Positions 2,596 to 52,714 of a stretch of DNA of 64,000 nucleotides are shown in pieces. Numbering within the stretch: position 1 is the first letter of the stretch; every line of letters starts with the position of its first letter. The notes below the pieces were generated by a model. It saw nothing but the letters and a program-made list of their open reading frames with translations, was not told where the DNA came from and did not search any database. The translations under genes and the position numbers were made by a program. Source of the stretch: Sulfurovum indicum (GTDB lineage: Bacteria > Campylobacterota > Campylobacteria > Campylobacterales > Sulfurovaceae); contig NZ_CP063164.1 in the NCBI RefSeq assembly GCF_014931715.1, positions 248,001 through 312,000 of the forward strand, read 5' to 3'.

Positions 2596-2632
2596 CCTAT
2601 AGTCTGCCCTTTGGGCGGGTAGACTACAGGCT
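2596..2632 (-). terminator. Hairpin at the end of murD
   Basis: A long imperfect hairpin (GCCTnTAGTCT ... GCCC-AAA-GGGC ... AGACTAnAGGC) begins within the last codons of murD and includes its stop codon. There is no strong T-tract right after it, so it may act as an RNA-stabilising or weak terminating structure rather than a classical terminator. Confidence 0.45.
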
Positions 2633-3883
2633 CTTTACAAGCTTTACAAATCTCTCTCCCCGGTGTTTGTATGATGTAAACTGGTCAAAACTGGCTGCTG
2701 CCGGGGAGAGGAGGGCAATGCTCTTTTGGGTATGTATTGTATCGATCAATTTGACAGCATGTTCAAGGGTAACTGCCTCTTTCAGATCGATATTGAATTT
2801 TTTTGAAAGCTTTTTCACCTTTTGGCTGTTTGCTCCGATGCTATATAATGTAAGGTCTATATGTGCCAAAAGGCTGAAAAGCGGTGTAAGGTCTACCCCT
2901 TTGTCATCTCCTCCGAGAATAAGGTGAATATGGTTGTCACTGTAAGTCTTTACTGCCTGTATGGTTGCATCAAGGTTGGTTGCTTTGGAGTCATTGACCC
3001 AGAGTCTACCCTTTCTGTCTGTGAGCTCTTCCTGTCTGTGGGCATCCCGTTGAAAAGTGTTGAGCAGATCGTAGTCTGTTTCGTCAAAAAGTACCTTGGT
3101 AATGGAAAGAGAGAGCAGGGCATCTTGTAAAAAGGCCCCTTTGTAGTTGAGGTTGGCTGCATTCAGACCAAAGTAGTCACAGAGAAAGTTGTTGCTGTCA
3201 TACTCGACCACATAGGCATCAGTCCTGGGAAGGTTCATCCCTTTGGGGATCAGTGCCAGCTCTCCCTCTTTCATATTCAGCAGCGGTTTGAGCTTATCGG
3301 CTTCATAGGCTTGAGGGGTACTGTGCCAGTCCAGATGGTCAGGGGTGACAGGCAGAAGCAGATAGATGTCCGGTGAGGCGATTTTGGTATGATGCAGGGT
3401 AAAAGAGCTTGTCTCCAACACCCAGACAGGTGCTTTTTCATCAAGCTCTGCCAGTGGTGTACCGATGTTCCCACCGCTTACGGCACCGCGTTTTTTCAAA
3501 AGGTGGGTAAGCATCTGGGTCGTGGTGGTTTTGCCGTTGGTACCTGATATCCAAATCGTAAAAGGCGTTTTCCTTTTAAATGAGGAAGTAGGAAGTAGGA
3601 AGTAGGAATTGTGGTTTGCGTTATTTTCACCGCCTAAAAAGTAGTCATATTCACTTAGTAGATGTTTTGCTTTTTGAATAAGCGGGTGTTTTGGGGGCAA
3701 GCTGGGTGTAGTGACTTCCAATCGACTTTCATCGGGGTTGAACAGAGATGAAGGCTTGATGATATTGTTGTATTCATCAGTATAAGTTTCTTTACAGTTG
3801 TCGTCGAAAAAGGTACAGCCCCCACCCAGTTTTTTTGCTATGGCTTTGGTGGTAAGACCGTAGCCGAAAAGGGTTGGCTTCAT
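2624..3883 (-). CDS. murD: UDP-N-acetylmuramoylalanine--D-glutamate ligase
   Basis: Cytoplasmic Mur ligase adding D-Glu to UDP-MurNAc-L-Ala in peptidoglycan precursor synthesis. Seen: the ATP-binding P-loop GTNGKTTTTQ (about residues 114-123), an ETSSF motif, the HLDWH segment and the C-terminal domain with NDSKATN and LGGDDKG. Length (419 aa) is slightly below the usual ~440. Residues about 84-108 are an extra low-complexity stretch encoded by three perfect copies of the heptamer GGAAGTA (plus strand, 3584-3604) with flanking hairpin sequence, placed just before the P-loop domain and kept in frame. The start is preceded by AAAGGA lying in the loop of a perfect hairpin (3884-3906). It follows mraY in direction, as in other Campylobacterota, but is separated from it by a repeat cassette. 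Confidence 0.9.
   Translation of the reverse strand: MKPTLFGYGLTTKAIAKKLGGGCTFFDDNCKETYTDEYNNIIKPSSLFNPDESRLEVTTPSLPPKHPLIQKAKHLLSEYDYFLGGENNANHNSYFLLPTSSFKRKTPFTIWISGTNGKTTTTQMLTHLLKKRGAVSGGNIGTPLAELDEKAPVWVLETSSFTLHHTKIASPDIYLLLPVTPDHLDWHSTPQAYEADKLKPLLNMKEGELALIPKGMNLPRTDAYVVEYDSNNFLCDYFGLNAANLNYKGAFLQDALLSLSITKVLFDETDYDLLNTFQRDAHRQEELTDRKGRLWVNDSKATNLDATIQAVKTYSDNHIHLILGGDDKGVDLTPLFSLLAHIDLTLYSIGANSQKVKKLSKKFNIDLKEAVTLEHAVKLIDTIHTQKSIALLSPAAASFDQFTSYKHRGERFVKLVKSL
3556..3636. repeat. Heptamer-repeat/hairpin element inside murD
   Basis: Three perfect tandem copies of GGAAGTA (3584-3590, 3591-3597, 3598-3604) are flanked by AAAAGG...CCTTTT (3560-3577) and by GCG...CGC sequences. The arrangement resembles the intergenic heptamer elements found elsewhere in the window. 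It lies within the murD reading frame and adds roughly 25 residues without breaking it. Confidence 0.65.
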
Positions 3884-3963
3884 GAAAAATTCCTTTGGAA
3901 TTTTTCAAGTGAAGAGTGAAGAGTGAAGAGTGAAGAGTGTTGGTATGTTTTGCAGAGCAAAAC
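3884..3963. repeat. Heptamer-repeat/hairpin element, murD-side arm
   Basis: From left to right: perfect hairpin GAAAAATTCC-TTT-GGAATTTTTC (3884-3906), about four tandem GTGAAGA heptamers (3908-3939), TTGGTATG, and hairpin GTTTTGC-AGA-GCAAAAC (3947-3963). It is one arm of a cassette whose other arm (4348-4420) has the same parts in the opposite order and carries the four-helix-bundle gene between them. On the minus strand the loop of the first hairpin holds AAAGGA, the ribosome site of murD. Confidence 0.75.
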
Positions 3964-3970
3964 TTCTGCT

Positions 3971-4327
3971 TTATTTTTCATGATTGTTCTCTTTAGCTGT
4001 TTTAATACTGGATGCTAACATTCTAATAAGATTTTCTATATCATCCAATAGGCTTATTGCCAATTTTTCCTGAAGATAACTACAATCTTTTAGAAGGCTT
4101 AACCAATATTTTGTCTCATTCGCTTCTTTTAATGCAATAGAAAGTTTATTGATGAAATCTGATTTTGATTGGGCATATTTTCCTTCAGCAATCAAAGCTC
4201 CAATGGCGGTACCTGAACGTAAAACTTGTTTACTTAGGATAAACTCTTTTTTTTCTTGTTGTAAATATTCACTACACTTCACAATACGAATGGAAAAAGC
4301 ATAACTTTTCTCTTCTAAAATACTCAT
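3971..4327 (-). CDS. Four-helix-bundle protein (23S rRNA IVS / Avd-like family)
   Basis: 118 residues with four predicted amphipathic helices and the family signature segments FILSKQVLRSGTAIGALIAEG, SDFINKLSIALKEANETKYWL and a C-terminal helix ending in a charged tail. This matches the small four-helix-bundle family first found in 23S rRNA intervening sequences; the family also includes Avd, the accessory protein of diversity-generating retroelements. No reverse transcriptase or variable repeat is present here. The gene is enclosed by two inverted heptamer-repeat arms (3884-3963 and 4348-4420) and interrupts the mraY-murD pair, which suggests it travels with that repeat. Molecular function is unknown; nucleic-acid binding is inferred from the family. 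Confidence 0.8.
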   Translation of the reverse strand: MSILEEKSYAFSIRIVKCSEYLQQEKKEFILSKQVLRSGTAIGALIAEGKYAQSKSDFINKLSIALKEANETKYWLSLLKDCSYLQEKLAISLLDDIENLIRMLASSIKTAKENNHEK

Positions 4328-4347
4328 TTACTTCTCATCCAATAAAG

Positions 4348-4420
4348 GCTTTTTGTAAGAAAAGCTTACCATAACTCTTCACTCTTAGTTCTTAGTTCTT
4401 CACTTCAAAGCTTTGCTTTG
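4348..4420. repeat. Heptamer-repeat/hairpin element, mraY-side arm
   Basis: Read on the minus strand: hairpin CAAAGC-AAA-GCTTTG (4420-4406), heptamers of the GAAGTGAAGAACTAAG type, TTATGGTA, then hairpin GCTTTT...AAAAGC (4365-4348). The first hairpin ends next to the mraY stop codon at 4422. Orientation is opposite to the arm at 3884-3963, so the four-helix-bundle gene has inverted repeat ends. Confidence 0.75.
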
Positions 4421-4421
4421 A

Positions 4422-5480
4422 TCATCTGAATTTAAACGAGATCAACGCAAGTATATTGGCAATAAACGAAATCATCCAGAAACGTACGATGATCTTGTTC
4501 TCAGCCCAGCCCTTGAGTTCAAAGTGGTGATGGATCGGAGCCATACGGAAAATACGTTTTTGGCGCAGCTTGAAGCTCCCTACCTGCAAGATAACAGAGA
4601 CAGTTTCGATCACAAAGATCAGACCGATAAGTATGAGCAGTACTTCACTTTTCCCCAGTATGGCAAGATAGGCAAGGAGACCTCCGATAGCAAGGCTTCC
4701 GGTATCTCCCATAAAGACTTCGGCAGGGTAGGAGTTGTACCATAGAAACCCCATGAGCCCACCGCCCAGTGAGGCAGCAAGTATCATTACCTCTCCTACC
4801 CCTTTAATATTCGGAATAAGCAGATAGCTGCTGAAAATAGCATGGCCTGTCACATAAACGATGATGCCAAGGCTAAAGAGTGCAATGATGGAAGGAACTG
4901 TTGCCAGACCATCCAGTCCGTCGGTCAGATTAACAGCATTGGTTGCTGCCAAAAAGACTAAAACCCAGAATATGACTGCACCATAACCCATATCAAAGAG
5001 AGGTTTTTTGTAAAAAGGGATGTAAAACTCGGTAGAGAAACCGCTATATATGATCAGTGTTGTTACCAGTATGGCAATGATTGCAAGCAAGCCCATTTTC
5101 ATGCGTGGTGTCAACCCTTCGAGATTGTCCCCCGAGAGCACTTTCCCAAGATCATCTTTCAGCCCTACCAGTCCAAAACCAAGCAGTGTGATAATCCCTC
5201 CCCAGACATAAGGGTTGCTTAAGTCCATGGTGGCAAACACGGCGATCAGGGTAGCCAGAAGAAATATAGCACCGCCCATTGTCGGTGTATGGCGTTTCCC
5301 TTCATGGGAAGGAATATATTTACTGATAGGCTGATTGGCTTTTTTGCTGATCGCCCAGGCAAGATATTTGGGCATGATAAAAAGCGTCATGACAAATGCG
5401 ATAAGAAAAGCAAAGCCGGCACGTACTGAGATATAGCTAAAAAGATTGATGTCGAAAAGCTGGGAAAGGGTATAAAGCAT
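4422..5480 (-). CDS. mraY: Phospho-N-acetylmuramoyl-pentapeptide-transferase
   Basis: Integral membrane enzyme that makes lipid I from UDP-MurNAc-pentapeptide and undecaprenyl phosphate. 352 aa with about ten membrane spans. Visible signatures are the early RHTPTMGG segment, the catalytic [10 protein letters not shown] motif (Asp-rich, about residue 185), FMGDTGSLA and the histidine cluster [11 protein letters not shown]. Length and motifs are standard. The stop codon abuts a heptamer-repeat hairpin. Divergently transcribed from gpmI across 77 bp. Confidence 0.95.
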
Positions 5481-5557
5481 AGATAACTTTCAAAATAGGG
5501 ATTTAGGTTTACAAAAGCTTATTTTACTATGATTTCAATAAAAAAAGAGATGAGAGC

Positions 5558-7039
5558 ATGGATATTCAAAAGACGATATTGATTATTACCGACGGGATCG
5601 GGTATAAGCCCCATAGTGCCTGCAATGCTTTTGCAGATGCTGTAAAGCCGACCTATGATGCACTTGAGAATGTACCCCGGGCATTGATTTCCACTTACGG
5701 GCTCAGTGTGGGTCTTCCGGAAGGACAGATGGGGAATTCGGAAGTAGGGCATATGACGATCGGATCGGGTCGTATTTTGTACCAGGATCTTGTGAAGATA
5801 TCTTTGGCGCTGAAAGAGGGCGGTATTGAAGAGAACAGAGTACTTAAAGAGACGATGGGAAAGAGTGACCGTGTCCATCTTATCGGACTTTTAAGCGATG
5901 GCGGGGTGCATTCGCATATCGAGCATACGATCGGATTTGCCAAGTTGGCAAAGCGCAGAGGCAAAAAGGTCTTTTTGCATCTCATTACCGATGGACGTGA
6001 TGTAAGTCCGACGTCGGCCAAAACCTATATTGAACAGATCGAAGCGATCTGTGACAACGATATTCGTATCGCAACGATCGGCGGCCGTTTCTATACAATG
6101 GACAGGGACAACCGTTGGGAGAGAGTGGAGAAAGGGTATAGAGCGATTGCTGAAGCGACCCCGAAGACGGAACTTTCTCCCAAGGCGTATATTGATGCAA
6201 GCTATGCGAAAAATGAGACTGATGAGTTTATTGAGCCTGTGGCATTTGCAGGCTATGAAGGGATGCAGGAGGGTGATACAGTTATCGTAACCAACTTCCG
6301 TTCCGACAGGGTACGGGAGATCACGACTGCCCTTGGCGACCCTGGCTTCAGCGCTTTTGAGCGTACATTCATTCCTCTGCATATTGCAACGATGACACAG
6401 TATGATGCTGCTTTTCCCTACCCGGTACTCTTTCCAAAAGAGGCACCGAAGAATACACTTGCGGAAGTGATCGCGAATGCGGGTCTGCGTCAGCTGCATA
6501 CGGCAGAAACGGAAAAATATGCACATGTAACATTTTTCCTGAATGGAGGTATCGAAGAGCCGATGATCGGAGAGAGCCGTGTACTCATTCCCAGTCCGGA
6601 TGTCAAGACCTATGATATGAAACCGGAGATGTCTGCACCACAGGTGGGCGAGGCGGTACGTAAAGCGATGGATGAAGCCTATGATTTCATCGTGGTGAAT
6701 TTTGCCAATGGCGATATGGTTGGACATACAGGAAACTATGAAGCGGCCAAAGAAGCGGTACAGGCGGTAGATACAGAGCTTGGGAAGATCATTGCCAAGG
6801 CGGCAGAGGACGGCTATGCGATAGTGTTGACCTCTGATCACGGGAACTGTGAAGAGATGTGTGACGGAGAGGGGCATGTGTTGACCAACCATACGGTAGG
6901 CGATGTCTGGTGTTATGTATTGGCTGAGGGTATAACCAGAGTGAAAGAGGGGGGTGGACTCAACAATGTCGCACCAACTGTTCTGAAACTGATGGGGCTT
7001 GAGATCCCTGAAGAGATGGATGAGCCTCTAATAGTATAA
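5558..7039 (+). CDS. gpmI: 2,3-bisphosphoglycerate-independent phosphoglycerate mutase
   Basis: Interconverts 3- and 2-phosphoglycerate in glycolysis/gluconeogenesis. 493 aa, typical of the cofactor-independent, Mn-dependent alkaline-phosphatase-fold family. Seen: N-terminal ITDGIGY metal site, the phosphoserine loop [46 protein letters not shown] and the metal-binding [10 protein letters not shown]. The start ATG is preceded by a GAG-containing ribosome site. It stands as a single gene or leads the small gene at 7135. Confidence 0.95.
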
Positions 7040-7134
7040 TCGTTGTGCAGAACAATAATATTTTGGTACAATGATGGCAATAGTTCATTTTATATATCAC
7101 TGTGCTTAGTACGGTGATTGCAGAAGGTATCGAA

Positions 7135-7473
7135 ATGGAAAAGAAGATCAAAGAGTCAGTGGGGACCCTGCTGGCACATATTATCAAGATAGACAAACGG
7201 GATCTGGAGAAAGAAGCACCGCTCTTTTGTGATATCATGGGACAGAATTTCGACTGTAATCCGGAAGAGGCAAAAACATTTCTTCATGATATTATGGAGA
7301 AAGATTATGACCTGGACAAACATGTTGAGATCATCAATCAGGCCTTGGCCGATGACAAACTCTCAAAGTATCATCTTTTGGAACAGCTTAACCACATTAT
7401 CTACTCTGACAAGATCAGTGAAGAGGATTACAGGATCTTTGAAAACATCAAAGAGCGGCTGTTCCCCTCATAA
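7135..7473 (+). CDS. Small helical protein, possibly TerB-like
   Basis: 112 residues, all predicted helical, acidic, without signal peptide or membrane span. The segment order (helix, FCDIM, helical pairs, EQLNHIIYSDKISEEDYRIFENI) resembles the TerB/DjlA helical domain in layout, but I do not see its full signature, so this is a weak assignment. I chose the ATG at 7135, which has an AAGG ribosome site about 7 nt upstream, rather than the upstream GTG at 7102. Confidence 0.6.
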   Translation: MEKKIKESVGTLLAHIIKIDKRDLEKEAPLFCDIMGQNFDCNPEEAKTFLHDIMEKDYDLDKHVEIINQALADDKLSKYHLLEQLNHIIYSDKISEEDYRIFENIKERLFPS

Positions 7474-7703
7474 GTATCAAAACAGATGGGATATTGCAGA
7501 AAAAAGAGATAAAGCAGGGGGAGTGATGGGAGTGTAAACAGAAGCTCTTCTGAAAACACAGCCCCTTTATATACCGTGTGCAATCTGTTATGACAAAGTC
7601 GTGGTTCAATCGGATGATAATGCTTCAGGGTACTGTGAAGGATAATATAGCGGTAAATGATCGGATCTTTTAAAGGTACACTAAATTAAAACAAAGGATA
7701 TGA
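7474..7703. other. Spacer between the TerB-like gene and fabG
   Basis: No supported gene. A short stretch at 7550-7645 reads as a Cys-containing peptide (IPCAICYDK ... SGYCEG) in one frame but has no standard start codon. A typical ribosome site (AAAGGAT) precedes fabG. Confidence 0.4.
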
Positions 7704-8447
7704 ATGAAATTTTCCGGAAGTAATGTATTGGTAACAGGTGCAAGCCGCGGGATCGGTGCACAGATCGCAAAAACACTGGCACAGATGGGACTGAAAGTAT
7801 GGGTGAACTACAGAAGCGGTGAGGCAGAGGCAAAGGCTGTCAAAGCAGACATTGAAGCATCCGGAGGAAAAGCAGAAGTGATTGGTTTTGATGTGAGCGA
7901 TGAGGCGGCGTTTGTAGATGCGATCAAGCGTATTGTAGAGGCAGACGGTGAACTCTCCTATTTGGTTAACAATGCAGGGATCACCAATGACAAACTTGCT
8001 ATGCGTATGAAAACGGAAGATTTTATGTCTGTGATTGAAGCGAATCTGAAATCAACCTTTATTGGCTGCCGTGAAGCTGTCAAAGTAATGGGGAAAAAAC
8101 GTTTTGGATCGGTTGTTAACATTGCATCGATTGTTGGAGAAACAGGTAATGCAGGTCAGACGAACTACGCAGCAAGCAAAGGCGGAACAATTGCAATGAC
8201 AAAGAGTTTTGCCATTGAAGCGGCACCGAGAAACATCCGTTACAATACGATTACTCCGGGATTCATTGCAACAGAGATGACTGATGTACTTAAAGATGAG
8301 GTAAAAGATGCCTTTACCGCAAAGATTCCTATGGGTCGTTTTGGTGAACCTAAAGAGGTAGCTGAGGCTGTAGCGTTTCTGCTTTCCGATCACGCTTCTT
8401 ATATTACGGGCGAGACGTTGAAAGTGAATGGTGGGATGTATATGTAG
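7704..8447 (+). CDS. fabG: 3-oxoacyl-[acyl-carrier-protein] reductase
   Basis: NADPH-dependent SDR enzyme reducing 3-ketoacyl-ACP in fatty-acid elongation. 247 aa with the cofactor loop TGASRGIG (residues ~11-18), NNAGI, catalytic Ser in NIASIVGETG, and YAASKGG (the YxxxK motif), ending in GGMYM. In H. pylori and C. jejuni fabG lies close to acpP-fabF-accA; here those genes are 28 kb away at 36.5 kb, with the copper/nos region in between. A heptamer-repeat element starts right at its stop codon. Confidence 0.9.
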   Translation: MKFSGSNVLVTGASRGIGAQIAKTLAQMGLKVWVNYRSGEAEAKAVKADIEASGGKAEVIGFDVSDEAAFVDAIKRIVEADGELSYLVNNAGITNDKLAMRMKTEDFMSVIEANLKSTFIGCREAVKVMGKKRFGSVVNIASIVGETGNAGQTNYAASKGGTIAMTKSFAIEAAPRNIRYNTITPGFIATEMTDVLKDEVKDAFTAKIPMGRFGEPKEVAEAVAFLLSDHASYITGETLKVNGGMYM

Positions 8448-8578
8448 TTTTGCATTTGCAAAATTGCAAATTAGGAGTGAGGAATGAGGAGTGAAGTGTT
8501 GAGGTATGCATTGCTGTGCAATGCTTGTATTGTCGATTACTCATTACTCATTAGTCATTCTTCTTTTGTCGGAGACAA
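8448..8578. repeat. Heptamer-repeat/hairpin element (fabG to response regulator)
   Basis: Hairpin TTTTGCA-TT-TGCAAAA (8448-8463), GGAGTGA-type heptamers, GAGGTATG, hairpin GCATTGC-TGT-GCAATGC (8508-8524), then heptamers in the opposite orientation (ACTCATT-type, 8538-8560) and a terminal hairpin TTGTC-GGA-GACAA (8566-8578). The last loop carries the GGAGA ribosome site of the next gene. It looks like an internally deleted version of the four-helix-bundle cassette. Confidence 0.7.
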
Positions 8579-8580
8579 CC

Positions 8581-9243
8581 ATGGCAACTAAAATTCTTCT
8601 GCTTGAAGATGACAGGCTCTTTAACGAAACGCTTCAGGACTTTCTGGAAGAAGAAGGATTTGTACTCAATGTGGCACTTGATCCTTACACGGCATTGGAG
8701 CTAAGCTATGCGAATAAGTATGATATCTATCTCTTTGATGTTAACCTTCCCTATGAGAGCGGTTTTGATCTACTGAAAAAACTGCGTCAAAGCGGTGATC
8801 TTACACCAACAATATTTTTAACTTCACGTGAAGACCGTGATTCTCTGGCAGAGGGATTTGAGACGGGCGCTGATGACTATATGAGAAAGCCTATCGATCT
8901 GGATGAACTGTTGTTCCGTATACAGGCGATACTGCGTAGGCAGGTACGCCAGGAGCGTATGGTGTTTGGCGAGTACAGTCTTGATATGGTTGCCAAGACA
9001 CTTTATCACAACGGCGAAGCACTGGAAGTAACAAAAAAAGCGGTCGAGCTTCTTGTATTGCTGGTTGAATCAGGCGGGGAAGTGGTCAGAAGTGAGATGA
9101 TTAAGAACCGTTTATGGGCAGCGGGGCAGAGTGCAAGTGACGGATCGTTAAGGGTCTATGTTACGCAACTTAAGAAGTATTTCCCCGATGCTATTGTCAA
9201 TGTACGCGGTGTAGGTTACAAATGGCAGTTTGAAGGTCATTGA
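8581..9243 (+). CDS. OmpR/PhoB-family response regulator
   Basis: 220 aa. Receiver domain with acidic pair ED/D (9-11), phospho-acceptor Asp53 (YLFDVNLP), TSRE switch Thr/Ser and Lys in RKPIDLDEL, followed by a winged-helix DNA-binding domain (VTKKAVELLVLLVE ... YVTQLKKYF ... VRGVGYKWQ). I place the start at the ATG at 8581, just after the ribosome-site hairpin, because the frame upstream encodes only repeat sequence. It is followed after 3 nt by its histidine kinase. It resembles the second regulator at 15138 (same ELSYA...YLFD block), so the two systems look paralogous. Confidence 0.9.
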   Translation: MATKILLLEDDRLFNETLQDFLEEEGFVLNVALDPYTALELSYANKYDIYLFDVNLPYESGFDLLKKLRQSGDLTPTIFLTSREDRDSLAEGFETGADDYMRKPIDLDELLFRIQAILRRQVRQERMVFGEYSLDMVAKTLYHNGEALEVTKKAVELLVLLVESGGEVVRSEMIKNRLWAAGQSASDGSLRVYVTQLKKYFPDAIVNVRGVGYKWQFEGH

Positions 9244-32952: not shown

Positions 32953-34120
32953 CGCATTTCTCTACTTTCTTACACTCATGCTCTTTAGGCAGAAAAGTAA
33001 ACATATAGGGGCCATAATGATCTCTGTGATCATTATTTTTCTCTTGAGTGCCGTTCTCTTCATCTCCTCTTCTCTGCAGTATTCACTTTTGGCAACACTG
33101 GAAGGTCAGGCAGATTTCAGTGTGAGCAGGGTTCAGGCAGGCAGACCGGTGAATACCCCGGTAGAGTGGGTAGAGAGGATACTTGAGATCAATGGGGTAT
33201 CCCATGTCGCACCAAGGATCTATGGAAGATACTTCTTTACACCGCGAGAAAAATCTTTTTTAGTGGTCGGTATAGATTTTTTCGATGAGCAAAACAGTAA
33301 AGCTATGGAAAAGTTGATAGAAGAGATAGATTTAAAACGTTTTCTCTCTGCCGAGAGTATGCTGGTAGGGGAAGGGGTGAAGAGATTTTTGGAAGCACAC
33401 TATTTTAAGAATGATTTTACCTTTAAGACCCCGAAGGGAACATTTAAAAAAGTAAAAATATACAAAGTGCTGCCTGAACAGACCAATCTTATAGCCAACG
33501 ATATGATAGTGATGCCGCTCGAACTGGCAAGAGAGGTATTTGGTATGAGGGATGATGAGGTCACAGATATCACATTCAATGTGCCCAATGATGCCGAATG
33601 GGACAATATCATTACAAAACTGCATTTGATGTTCTATGATGTAAGGGTGGTTGAAAAAAGAGAGATCAAAAAAGCGTATGAAAACCTTTACAACTACAAA
33701 GGAGGACTCTTTTTGATACTTTATCTGGTGAGTATTGTTACTTTTATGCTTGTTTTGTATCAGCGTTACTCCATGGTATACTCTACCGAGCGGAAAGAGA
33801 TAGGTATTCTTCGTGCGACAGGATGGAGTATCAAAGATATTCTGCGGTTGAAGTTCTATGAGAACCTGATCATTGTGATAGTGAGTTTTACTGTAGGGGT
33901 AGTCCTGGCATATCTTTATGTATTTATTTTTGATGCCCCACTGCTTAGCCAGATCTTTTTGGGTGGAGCAAATCTGCCTAACCGTGTCTCATTCATACCT
34001 GCACTGGAGTTCGGTATTCTGGGATCGGTTTTTCTTTTTTACGCTGTTCCTTTTTTGGCAGCAGTTTTGATTCCTGCATGGAAGATTGCAGTGACATCAC
34101 CGAGAGAGGCGATGCAGTAA
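32942..34120 (+). CDS. FtsX/MacB-type ABC transporter permease
   Basis: 392 aa from ATG 32942. One N-terminal helix (about 26-46), a large periplasmic MacB-like domain (about 47-255) and three C-terminal helices, with the family segment ERKEIGILRATGWSIKDILRLKFYE between the second and third helices and the SPREAM end. Such permeases transmit mechanical force to the periplasm or export lipoproteins/metabolites. In this place, next to NosL-like genes and a LolD-like ATPase, it probably serves copper handling. Confidence 0.85.
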   Translation: MQNSAFLYFLTLMLFRQKSKHIGAIMISVIIIFLLSAVLFISSSLQYSLLATLEGQADFSVSRVQAGRPVNTPVEWVERILEINGVSHVAPRIYGRYFFTPREKSFLVVGIDFFDEQNSKAMEKLIEEIDLKRFLSAESMLVGEGVKRFLEAHYFKNDFTFKTPKGTFKKVKIYKVLPEQTNLIANDMIVMPLELAREVFGMRDDEVTDITFNVPNDAEWDNIITKLHLMFYDVRVVEKREIKKAYENLYNYKGGLFLILYLVSIVTFMLVLYQRYSMVYSTERKEIGILRATGWSIKDILRLKFYENLIIVIVSFTVGVVLAYLYVFIFDAPLLSQIFLGGANLPNRVSFIPALEFGILGSVFLFYAVPFLAAVLIPAWKIAVTSPREAMQ

Positions 34121-34171
34121 ACAGTGAGGAGTGAAGAGTGAAGAGTGAAAGTATGCATTGCTCTGCAATGC
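34121..34171. repeat. Heptamer-repeat/hairpin element (permease to ATPase)
   Basis: GGAGTGA/AGAGTGA heptamers directly after the permease stop, then GTATG and the hairpin GCATTGC-TCT-GCAATGC (34155-34171). The hairpin differs only in its loop from the copies at 8508 and 44925. Confidence 0.7.
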
Positions 34172-34229
34172 CCGGATCAGATGGAGGGTACTCTGTTGTT
34201 ACAGTTGTATTTGTTAAAAAGAAGAAACT

Positions 34230-44248: not shown

Positions 44249-44890
44249 ATGTTAGTAGCACCAAGTATACTTTCGGCAGACTTTGGTTATTTGGCTGATG
44301 ATGTGAAGGCCATTTGTGAAGGGGGATGTGACCTTGTACATGTAGATGTGATGGACGGACACTTCGTTCCCAATCTGACGATCGGTCCGGTAGTAGTGGA
44401 AGCGATAGCAAAAGCGGCGACCAAACCGCTTGATATTCACCTGATGGTTGAGAATAACAGTTTCTTTGTTGATCTTTTTGCTCCGTTGAAACCGGAGTTT
44501 ATCTCTTTTCATATTGAAGAGGAGAAGCATCCTCACAGATTGATTCAGAAGATCCGCTCTTTGGATATCAGACCGGCGATCGTGCTGAATCCCCATACGC
44601 CGCCTGAAAAGATAGAGTTCCTGCTTGAATATGTTGATATGGTACTGCTCATGTCGGTTAACCCGGGTTTTGGCGGACAGAAGTTCATCCCCTCGGTCAT
44701 TGAAAAGGCACAGCGACTCAAAGCGCTTATTGAAAAACGCAACCCTGATTGTCTTATCGAAGTGGATGGCGGAGTGAATGATACAAATGTCAAAGTGCTT
44801 GCTGATGCCGGTGTGGATGTGGTTGTTGCCGGGTCATTTGTCTATAAACACCCTAAAGGGGTGGGAGAGGCGATCGCCTCTTTGAAGTGA
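44249..44890 (+). CDS. rpe: Ribulose-phosphate 3-epimerase
   Basis: 213 aa TIM barrel. Motifs: APSILSADFG, LVHVDVMDGHFVPNLTIGP, DIHLMVEN, MSVNPGFGGQKFIPS, EVDGGVND. Interconverts ribulose-5-P and xylulose-5-P. Its last codons contain the palindrome GAGGCGATCGCCTC, the first hairpin of a heptamer-repeat element that continues into the spacer. Confidence 0.96.
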   Translation: MLVAPSILSADFGYLADDVKAICEGGCDLVHVDVMDGHFVPNLTIGPVVVEAIAKAATKPLDIHLMVENNSFFVDLFAPLKPEFISFHIEEEKHPHRLIQKIRSLDIRPAIVLNPHTPPEKIEFLLEYVDMVLLMSVNPGFGGQKFIPSVIEKAQRLKALIEKRNPDCLIEVDGGVNDTNVKVLADAGVDVVVAGSFVYKHPKGVGEAIASLK

Positions 44891-45037
44891 AGAGAGAAGA
44901 GTGAATAGTGAATAGTGTCGGTATGCATTGCTGTGCAATGCTTTTATTGAAAGGAGAAGAGAATATGAAATATATCAAAATAGAAGTTTTTCGAAAGAAA
45001 AACAAACTAAAACTATTCACTTCTCCCAAAAGGGAGA
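44866..45037. repeat. Heptamer-repeat/hairpin element between rpe and trpF
   Basis: Parts in order: palindrome AGAGGCGATCGCCTCT (44866-44881, inside rpe), heptamers GTGAATA/GAGAAGA (44888-44916), TCGGTATG, hairpin GCATTGC-TGT-GCAATGC (44925-44941), a 44-nt middle, hairpin GTTTTTC-GAAA-GAAAAAC (44986-45003), reversed heptamers (ACTATTCACTTC), and terminal hairpin TCTCCC-AAAA-GGGAGA (45022-45037), whose right arm is the ribosome site of trpF. Confidence 0.7.
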
Positions 45038-52621: not shown

Positions 52622-52714
52622 TGAAATGAAAAATTAGCAATTAAAAATTAAAAAAAGGGGCAGGGGACTTTTGATTTTTCCTTTTTAATTTTTAATTTCA
52701 ATATCCGAAGGATA
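52622..52714. repeat. Heptamer-repeat/hairpin element between the Zap-like genes
   Basis: AAAAATT/AGCAATT heptamers (52629-52656), a GGGGCAGGGG middle, heptamers in reverse (TTTTTAATTTTTAATTT), and a terminal hairpin TATCC-GAA-GGATA (52702-52714) with AAGGA, the ribosome site of the next gene, in loop and right arm. Confidence 0.65.

Follow-up and report, generated by a model that had tools for sequence, protein, structure and literature searches.

The interval between mraY and murD in the window (the whole 64,000-nt stretch of DNA that was analysed) is filled by a compact cassette that carries one gene of the 23S rRNA intervening-sequence (IVS) protein family between two inverted arrays of five heptamers. 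The element is of the IVS kind in a new form: the protein and the closed-stem plan are the same, but it resides in a protein operon, and its heptamer anatomy is common to an rRNA IVS. On balance, it is regarded as probably a member of a widespread IVS-class family in which a five-fold ring protein would sit on the heptamer arms, the insert would be looped out of the transcript, and relocation would be rare. The same package, with its own repeat in each case and usually five units, recurs at gene junctions in many bacterial phyla and in a 23S rRNA gene. Two puzzles that had been studied separately, the role of the S23/IVS helix-bundle protein and the nature of intergenic heptamer arrays, are thereby joined, and the numerical match between five-unit arrays and five-chain homologues makes both testable together.

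The cassette gene (positions 3971-4327, minus strand) encodes a four-helix-bundle protein of 118 residues. In profile searches against the two models of the 23S rRNA IVS-protein family, this protein scored 95 bits with PF05635 (cutoff 33.8) and 103 bits with TIGR02436. Its AF2 model had a mean pLDDT of 92.6, and the top fold match was 2rld. The original prediction of an IVS-type helix-bundle gene splitting mraY from murD was thus borne out, as was that of a compact cassette with a single protein: the PF05635 gene is the only ORF, and a transposase gene is absent. Upstream lies mraY (4422-5480, minus strand; recognized from its ORF translation, named from sequence, and conserved in position in relatives), and downstream lies murD (2624-3883, minus strand; also recognized from its translation, with orthologues in 57 of the 61 genomes of the genus). 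All three genes are on the minus strand, and the cassette, at 3884-4421, takes up the entire gap between the mraY stop and the murD start.

Both ends of the cassette are made of the same parts in mirrored order, namely an outer hairpin, five heptamers, a TGGTA box, and an inner hairpin. At the mraY end, the outer hairpin (4405-4421, TCAAAGC-TTT-GCTTTGA) adjoins the mraY stop. It is followed by the 5' (upstream) arm (4373-4404, minus strand), 32 nt of five degenerate heptamers (AGTGAAG AACTAAG AACTAAG AGTGAAG AGTT) in inverted repeat with 3908-3939, then by an ATGGTA box on the minus strand (4367-4372), which is present in gene-less copies too, and by the inner hairpin AAGCTTTT-cttac-AAAAAGCCTT (4345-4367, minus strand). 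At the murD end, the 3' (downstream) arm (3908-3939, minus strand) is a perfect inverted heptamer array of 32 nt that reads on the plus strand as four AGTGaag units plus AGTG (TRF period 7, 100% match); inward of it are the box TGGTATG (3941-3947, plus strand) and the hairpin GTTTTGC-AGA-GCAAAAC (3947-3963, plus strand). The outer hairpin adjoining the murD start (3883-3907) has 11-nt arms that are 100% complementary, one side being the murD leader GGAATTTTTC and the other an inverted copy of that leader. With all parts located, the two arms form a 60-nt inverted repeat (73%), in agreement with the mirrored architecture claimed earlier, and structure prediction for this element gave 21 arm-arm pairs. 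The arrays are perfect or near-perfect, intergenic, and 7-nt in period, i.e. heptamer tandem repeats of the LSSR/STRR class. Inverted terminal repeats, a trait of DNA transposons and MITEs, are present, and the unit differs between copies. An Rfam scan of 3500-9000 returned no matches. A perfect in-frame heptamer array (AGGAAGT) was also noted within murD itself (3583-3608), in a variable loop ahead of the WISGTNGKTTT motif; the MurD proteins of several relatives have different insertions at that loop, some with heptamer-encodable peptides such as SLFTLHSSL.

Inverted arms are a general companion of PF05635 genes. The 2.21-Mb source genome has nine such genes, each with inverted short-repeat flanks on inspection and each with its own repeat. 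An inverted-flank score of 30 was reached by 6 of the 9, compared to 2 of 386 other genes; a score of 25 was reached by 11 of the 386. Two of the nine loci (L003 and L009) were below the score cutoff. The family is present in 31 of the 61 genomes of the genus, in 1 to 11 copies each. A set of 120 loci was drawn from the genus, 80 named genome records, and plasmids; the 80 named-record loci belong to a single subfamily and were picked by similarity to the query. Scores of at least 25 were found for 105 of the 120 loci and of at least 28 for 96, while only 2 of the 88 control genes from the neighbourhood had such arms; because the loci were similarity-selected and some are orthologous, the significance of this enrichment is overstated as regards independence, the effect size being unaffected. 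The arms are therefore commoner around family genes than around other genes, as had been proposed, and helix-bundle genes devoid of arms were not found as a rule. Several of the 15 loci under 25 were false negatives, e.g. that of Azospirillum, where the arm extends into the assigned ORF. Loci with arms span Campylobacterota, Bacteroidota, Pseudomonadota, Chloroflexi, and cyanobacterial plasmids. On plasmids of Pseudanabaena and Anabaena (L153 and L160), the cassette occupies a matching spot within a type I-D CRISPR locus, flanked by cas6 and cas4.

Within arms, identity was 0.74 at lag 7 and about 0.3 at other lags, and unsupervised phasing of 170 arms yielded the inward consensus A-R-T-K-R-R-N. 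Read inward, the arms contain 4.6% C, with a fixed strand polarity. Each element has a repeat sequence of its own, to which both of its arms conform. Of 121 downstream arms, 48 spanned exactly five units, 20 had four, and one had six; the maximum in shuffled flanks was four. The modal length of downstream arms was 32 nt and the median was near 32 for both arms, with exceptions in the form of cassettes with 6-nt units or longer arrays. Five chains are present in each of two solved homologues, the close 2rld and the more distant 2gsc, and XCC0516 (2gsc) is described as a homopentamer of four-helix bundles (PMC4990558). The five-unit mode hence agrees with the five-chain homologous structures, the window protein's own stoichiometry aside, and from this agreement we infer one subunit per heptamer, such that the protein would form a pentameric ring on a single-stranded array. 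On general geometric grounds, a duplex of 32 bp would be both too short and too stiff to wrap such a ring; a single strand is therefore more likely as the bound form. TRAP is a ring protein that binds tandem RNA triplets, and by analogy the cassette protein, like TRAP, would have as many subunits in its ring as there are repeats, whereas the folds are unrelated.

In the transcript, the arms would otherwise pair with one another in a stem of about 20-30 bp, and the gene would be looped out as in a 23S IVS. An arm-arm stem was predicted in 56 of 60 transcripts, with a median of -31 kcal/mol. Arm mismatches comprised 69 of the sense-wobble kind and 129 of the opposite kind; selection on sense pairing would favour G-U wobbles. 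Selection for a sense-RNA duplex, as judged by wobble asymmetry, was thus unsupported, the asymmetry running the opposite way, perhaps owing to a more AT-rich upstream arm. Were the insert cut out or insulated, the flanking operon genes would still function and the insertion would be tolerable. By likeness to rRNA IVSs, for which stem formation and RNase III-type processing are documented (PMC4990558), RNase III-type processing or insulation may be envisaged. Three-frame stops occur in 61 of 88 upstream arms, and 44 of 88 downstream arms are stop-free; both features may help an intergenic insertion to be tolerated, and stop-free downstream arms could be read as the beginning of the gene that follows, as in TilS. 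The rimO-tilS arms (L231-L260) are translated in occupied genomes, where they encode the RimO C-terminus and take the place of the TilS N-terminus.

The resemblance to rRNA IVSs extends beyond the protein. A 23S rRNA IVS with an S23/IVP ORF, e.g. that of Coxiella burnetii (PMC4990558), likewise has terminal inverted repeats that form a stem and a PF05635 ORF in the loop that the stem closes, in sense orientation and with a transposase absent. It sits in a 23S rRNA helix, whereas the present cassette is located at a protein operon junction, outside any 23S rRNA gene, and is accordingly classed as IVS-like, not as an rRNA IVS. A plasmid of Azospirillum lipoferum carries a PF05635 gene within a 23S rRNA gene (Rfam LSU hit at 783-3981 of L159), and this IVS is framed by inverted heptamer arms of 36 nt; in this one case, therefore, a classical IVS shares the cassette anatomy. 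A heptameric make-up of IVS arms was not found described in the literature on IVSs examined. The rRNA IVSs would seem to represent a single kind of landing site in a much wider family of operon-dwelling cassettes.

Heptamer arrays of similar form have been reported elsewhere. They include GGGAATC arrays in Xanthomonas, many in convergent pairs, and arrays in Nostoc (PMC4692102); the repeat TAACTGA in Beggiatoaceae (PMC4679880); and five-unit MTYCTGA and four-unit GGGACCG arrays in Geobacter (PMC2700814). Such simple-sequence repeats resemble the cassette arms in their 7-nt period, their count of about four to five units, and their intergenic location. Those of Xanthomonas also often lie between co-oriented genes and as inverted pairs (PMC4692102): the G-rich strand is the sense one downstream of stop codons and the antisense one upstream of starts, which is the polarity of the cassette arms. 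These papers propose G4 formation, binding by Csp/S1/Csr, or an unnamed regulator (PMC4692102, PMC4679880, PMC2700814). No report tying heptamer arrays to PF05635 genes was found in the searched text of these papers or by searches of the openly licensed literature, an earlier report elsewhere being possible. An Acidobacteria copy of the cassette (L141) has AACTGAT units, which equal the TAACTGA repeat known from Beggiatoaceae.

Copies with both arms but no gene had been predicted at three further places in the window. That at 8448-8578 (plus strand), between two codirectional genes, indeed has both arms, with a left array, a TGGTA box, a TGCATTGC hairpin, and a right array. At 44866-45037 (plus strand), the derivative is internally deleted, with a full left arm and a short right arm, and by eye it contains a remnant resembling the 3' end of the deleted gene. 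The third pair (52622-52714, plus strand) held up poorly, being weak and AT-rich with AATTAAA units. A solo arm with the same TGCATTGC hairpin as the 8448-8578 copy is present at 34115-34175 (plus strand). Genome-wide array counts were based on samples of 400-464 kb. Period 7 was dominant, with 22 arrays in 464 kb versus 0-1 for each of the periods 8-11, and gene-less arrays were numerous, at about 47 per Mb in G000. Gene-less arrays may arise through the decay of cassettes. A strict need of the arrays for the protein was rejected, as a complete genome without a PF05635 gene (G050) still has arrays at 20 per Mb.

The abundance of gene-less arrays could also mean that the PF05635 ring is a TRAP-like global post-transcriptional regulator, the flanking arms being autoregulatory sites and the gene-less arrays its regulon. 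Purifying selection on the cassette genes (dN/dS 0.00-0.23) and their long residence at the priA-ispG junction in many species are in keeping with such a role, and Geobacter annotators predicted that their five tandem heptanucleotides, mainly paired, are sites of a global regulator (PMC2700814). We nonetheless consider it unlikely, since the gene is limited to about half of the genus, arrays are found in a complete genome that lacks it, and a private repeat for each element fits poorly with one protein and one regulon. The reading as an IVS-class family with a ring protein is preferred, and it too is counted against by several results: the wobble asymmetry, the arrays without a PF05635 gene, the lack of near-identical copies, and the 6-nt units or longer arrays.

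Mobility, another element of the original prediction, is supported by presence/absence variation, decayed gene-less derivatives, and apparent relocation between junctions. At mraY-murD, an intact gene was found in 6 genomes of the genus, degraded genes with arms in two, and arms only in several; relatives without the element have spacers of 1-14 nt, so that the comparison of spacers proposed earlier did expose empty sites next to arms-only and degraded ones. Presence, arms-only, and empty states also vary at priA-ispG, where 14 of the 52 genomes having ispG contain the element, and at rimO-tilS, occupied in 10 of 54. In the protein tree, mraY-murD elements fall in separate clades, intermixed with elements from other sites, and tree comparison indicated that the repeat sequence tracks the protein, not the site. 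Judging by these sequence comparisons, whole cassettes, with gene and arms, seem to have moved among mraY-murD, priA-ispG, and rimO-tilS; such rare moves would call for an enzyme encoded outside the cassette. Over element positions 60-240, the mraY-murD cassette of the window (L007) and L189, from two species, are about 98% identical, while their flanking genes are 73-75% identical. This patch therefore indicates recent local transfer or conversion and makes the L189 counterpart a mosaic, so some of the mixing in the tree may reflect recombination, not insertion. No near-identical copies at different sites within one genome were present among the fetched elements, and for that reason mobility is inferred from trees. 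The element is not simply restless or selfish, because many copies share one orthologous junction under purifying selection.

The priA-ispG copies record how arms and flanks change. Species differ in whether the repeat reads GTGAAGA, GTGAATA, or GTGAGGA, and both arms follow; an arm matched its own partner better than arms across species (permutation p=5e-5). For most copies, the end of priA recurs in inverted form as the outer left hairpin, which tracks species differences in the last codons of that gene (GAATTTTC/GAAAATTC, GAGTTTAGC/GCTAAACTC, GGAGTTCAG/CTGAACTCC). Hairpin stems at occupied sites are 6-12 bp and those at empty sites 2-7 bp. The inverted copy may have originated either at insertion or through later selection. 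Arms that change fast while keeping their mutual complementarity, along with inverted copies of the host flank, point to an unusual mode of insertion and tolerance. A bolder reading, held tentatively and more doubted than believed, is that of a transposase-free, RNA-level insertion element across many phyla: a five-fold ring would read a five-fold heptamer code, arm and protein would drift together to private codes, the host flank would be copied inverted at insertion, unlike in known transposons, and the rRNA IVSs and the orphan heptamers of cyanobacteria, Xanthomonas, Geobacter, and Beggiatoaceae would be its parts or remains.

The same inverted host copies, together with arm units that change in concert and arrays that occur without the gene, even in frame inside MurD, would fit a passive origin, in which slippage and fold-back template switching would propagate the heptamer arrays, with the gene hitch-hiking between two arms. 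This account leaves the specific enrichment of the PF05635 family, the sharp five-unit mode, and the conservation of the protein unexplained, and we judge it very unlikely.

A DNA-level miniature element was also weighed, in which a Y1 (RAYT/IS200-like) or other transposase in trans would recognize the arm hairpins and the helix-bundle protein would be an accessory. Hairpin modules are indeed dispersed: the inner hairpin TGCATTGC-TNT-GCAATGC occurs 23 times in the genome versus 0 for a control pattern. Gene-less inverted pairs exist, Y1 transposases were found in 47 of 61 genomes, and some of the cassette junctions are taken by REP-like GTAGGG..CCCTAC elements. REPIN/RAYT systems share with the cassette inverted hairpin-bearing ends, gene-less non-autonomous derivatives, and intergenic placement; the cassette differs in lacking both an internal Y1 transposase gene and a GTAG head, and in having tandem-heptamer ends and a strong sense bias. 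Y1 transposase genes lie elsewhere in the genome, not between the cassette ends. Relative to co-directional neighbours, 97 cassettes were sense and 6 antisense, which is unexpected for a DNA transposon. The gene is present without a Y1 transposase match in six genomes (G019, G031, G033, G037, G041, and G054), the cassette itself carries no transposase, and a comparison by eye of occupied and empty mraY-murD sites revealed no consistent repeat as a clear direct target-site duplication. A miniature element of this sort is consequently held to be quite unlikely.

Programmed variation by the Avd route of diversity-generating retroelements (DGRs), which had been suggested for the cassette, did not survive the analysis. 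The four-helix-bundle fold is common to the cassette protein and Avd (4dwl, 8ub7, and related structures), 4dwl and DGR RNP structures being matched at a TM of about 0.75, and a DGR-derived element might draw on a reverse transcriptase supplied in trans. Avd systems have a reverse transcriptase, whereas the cassette has none; the Avd-specific model (NF033474) gave 14.6 bits, far short of its cutoff of 80, and the complete genome has no RVT_1 match. Nor did a reverse transcriptase in trans gain support, as reverse transcriptases occur in 10 of 29 genus genomes with the gene and 6 of 32 without it, with no clear tracking. A DGR-derived origin is largely refuted for this genome and regarded as extremely improbable.

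Two features of other loci were recorded in passing. REP-like GTAGGG...CCCTAC hairpin pairs with variable stems are present in the priA-ispG and rimO-tilS junctions of other species (L203-L224, L248, L260). At G000:C1:737244-746850, four cassettes of the family are located within 10 kb, and one of them (L001) has a 6-nt unit instead of a 7-nt one.
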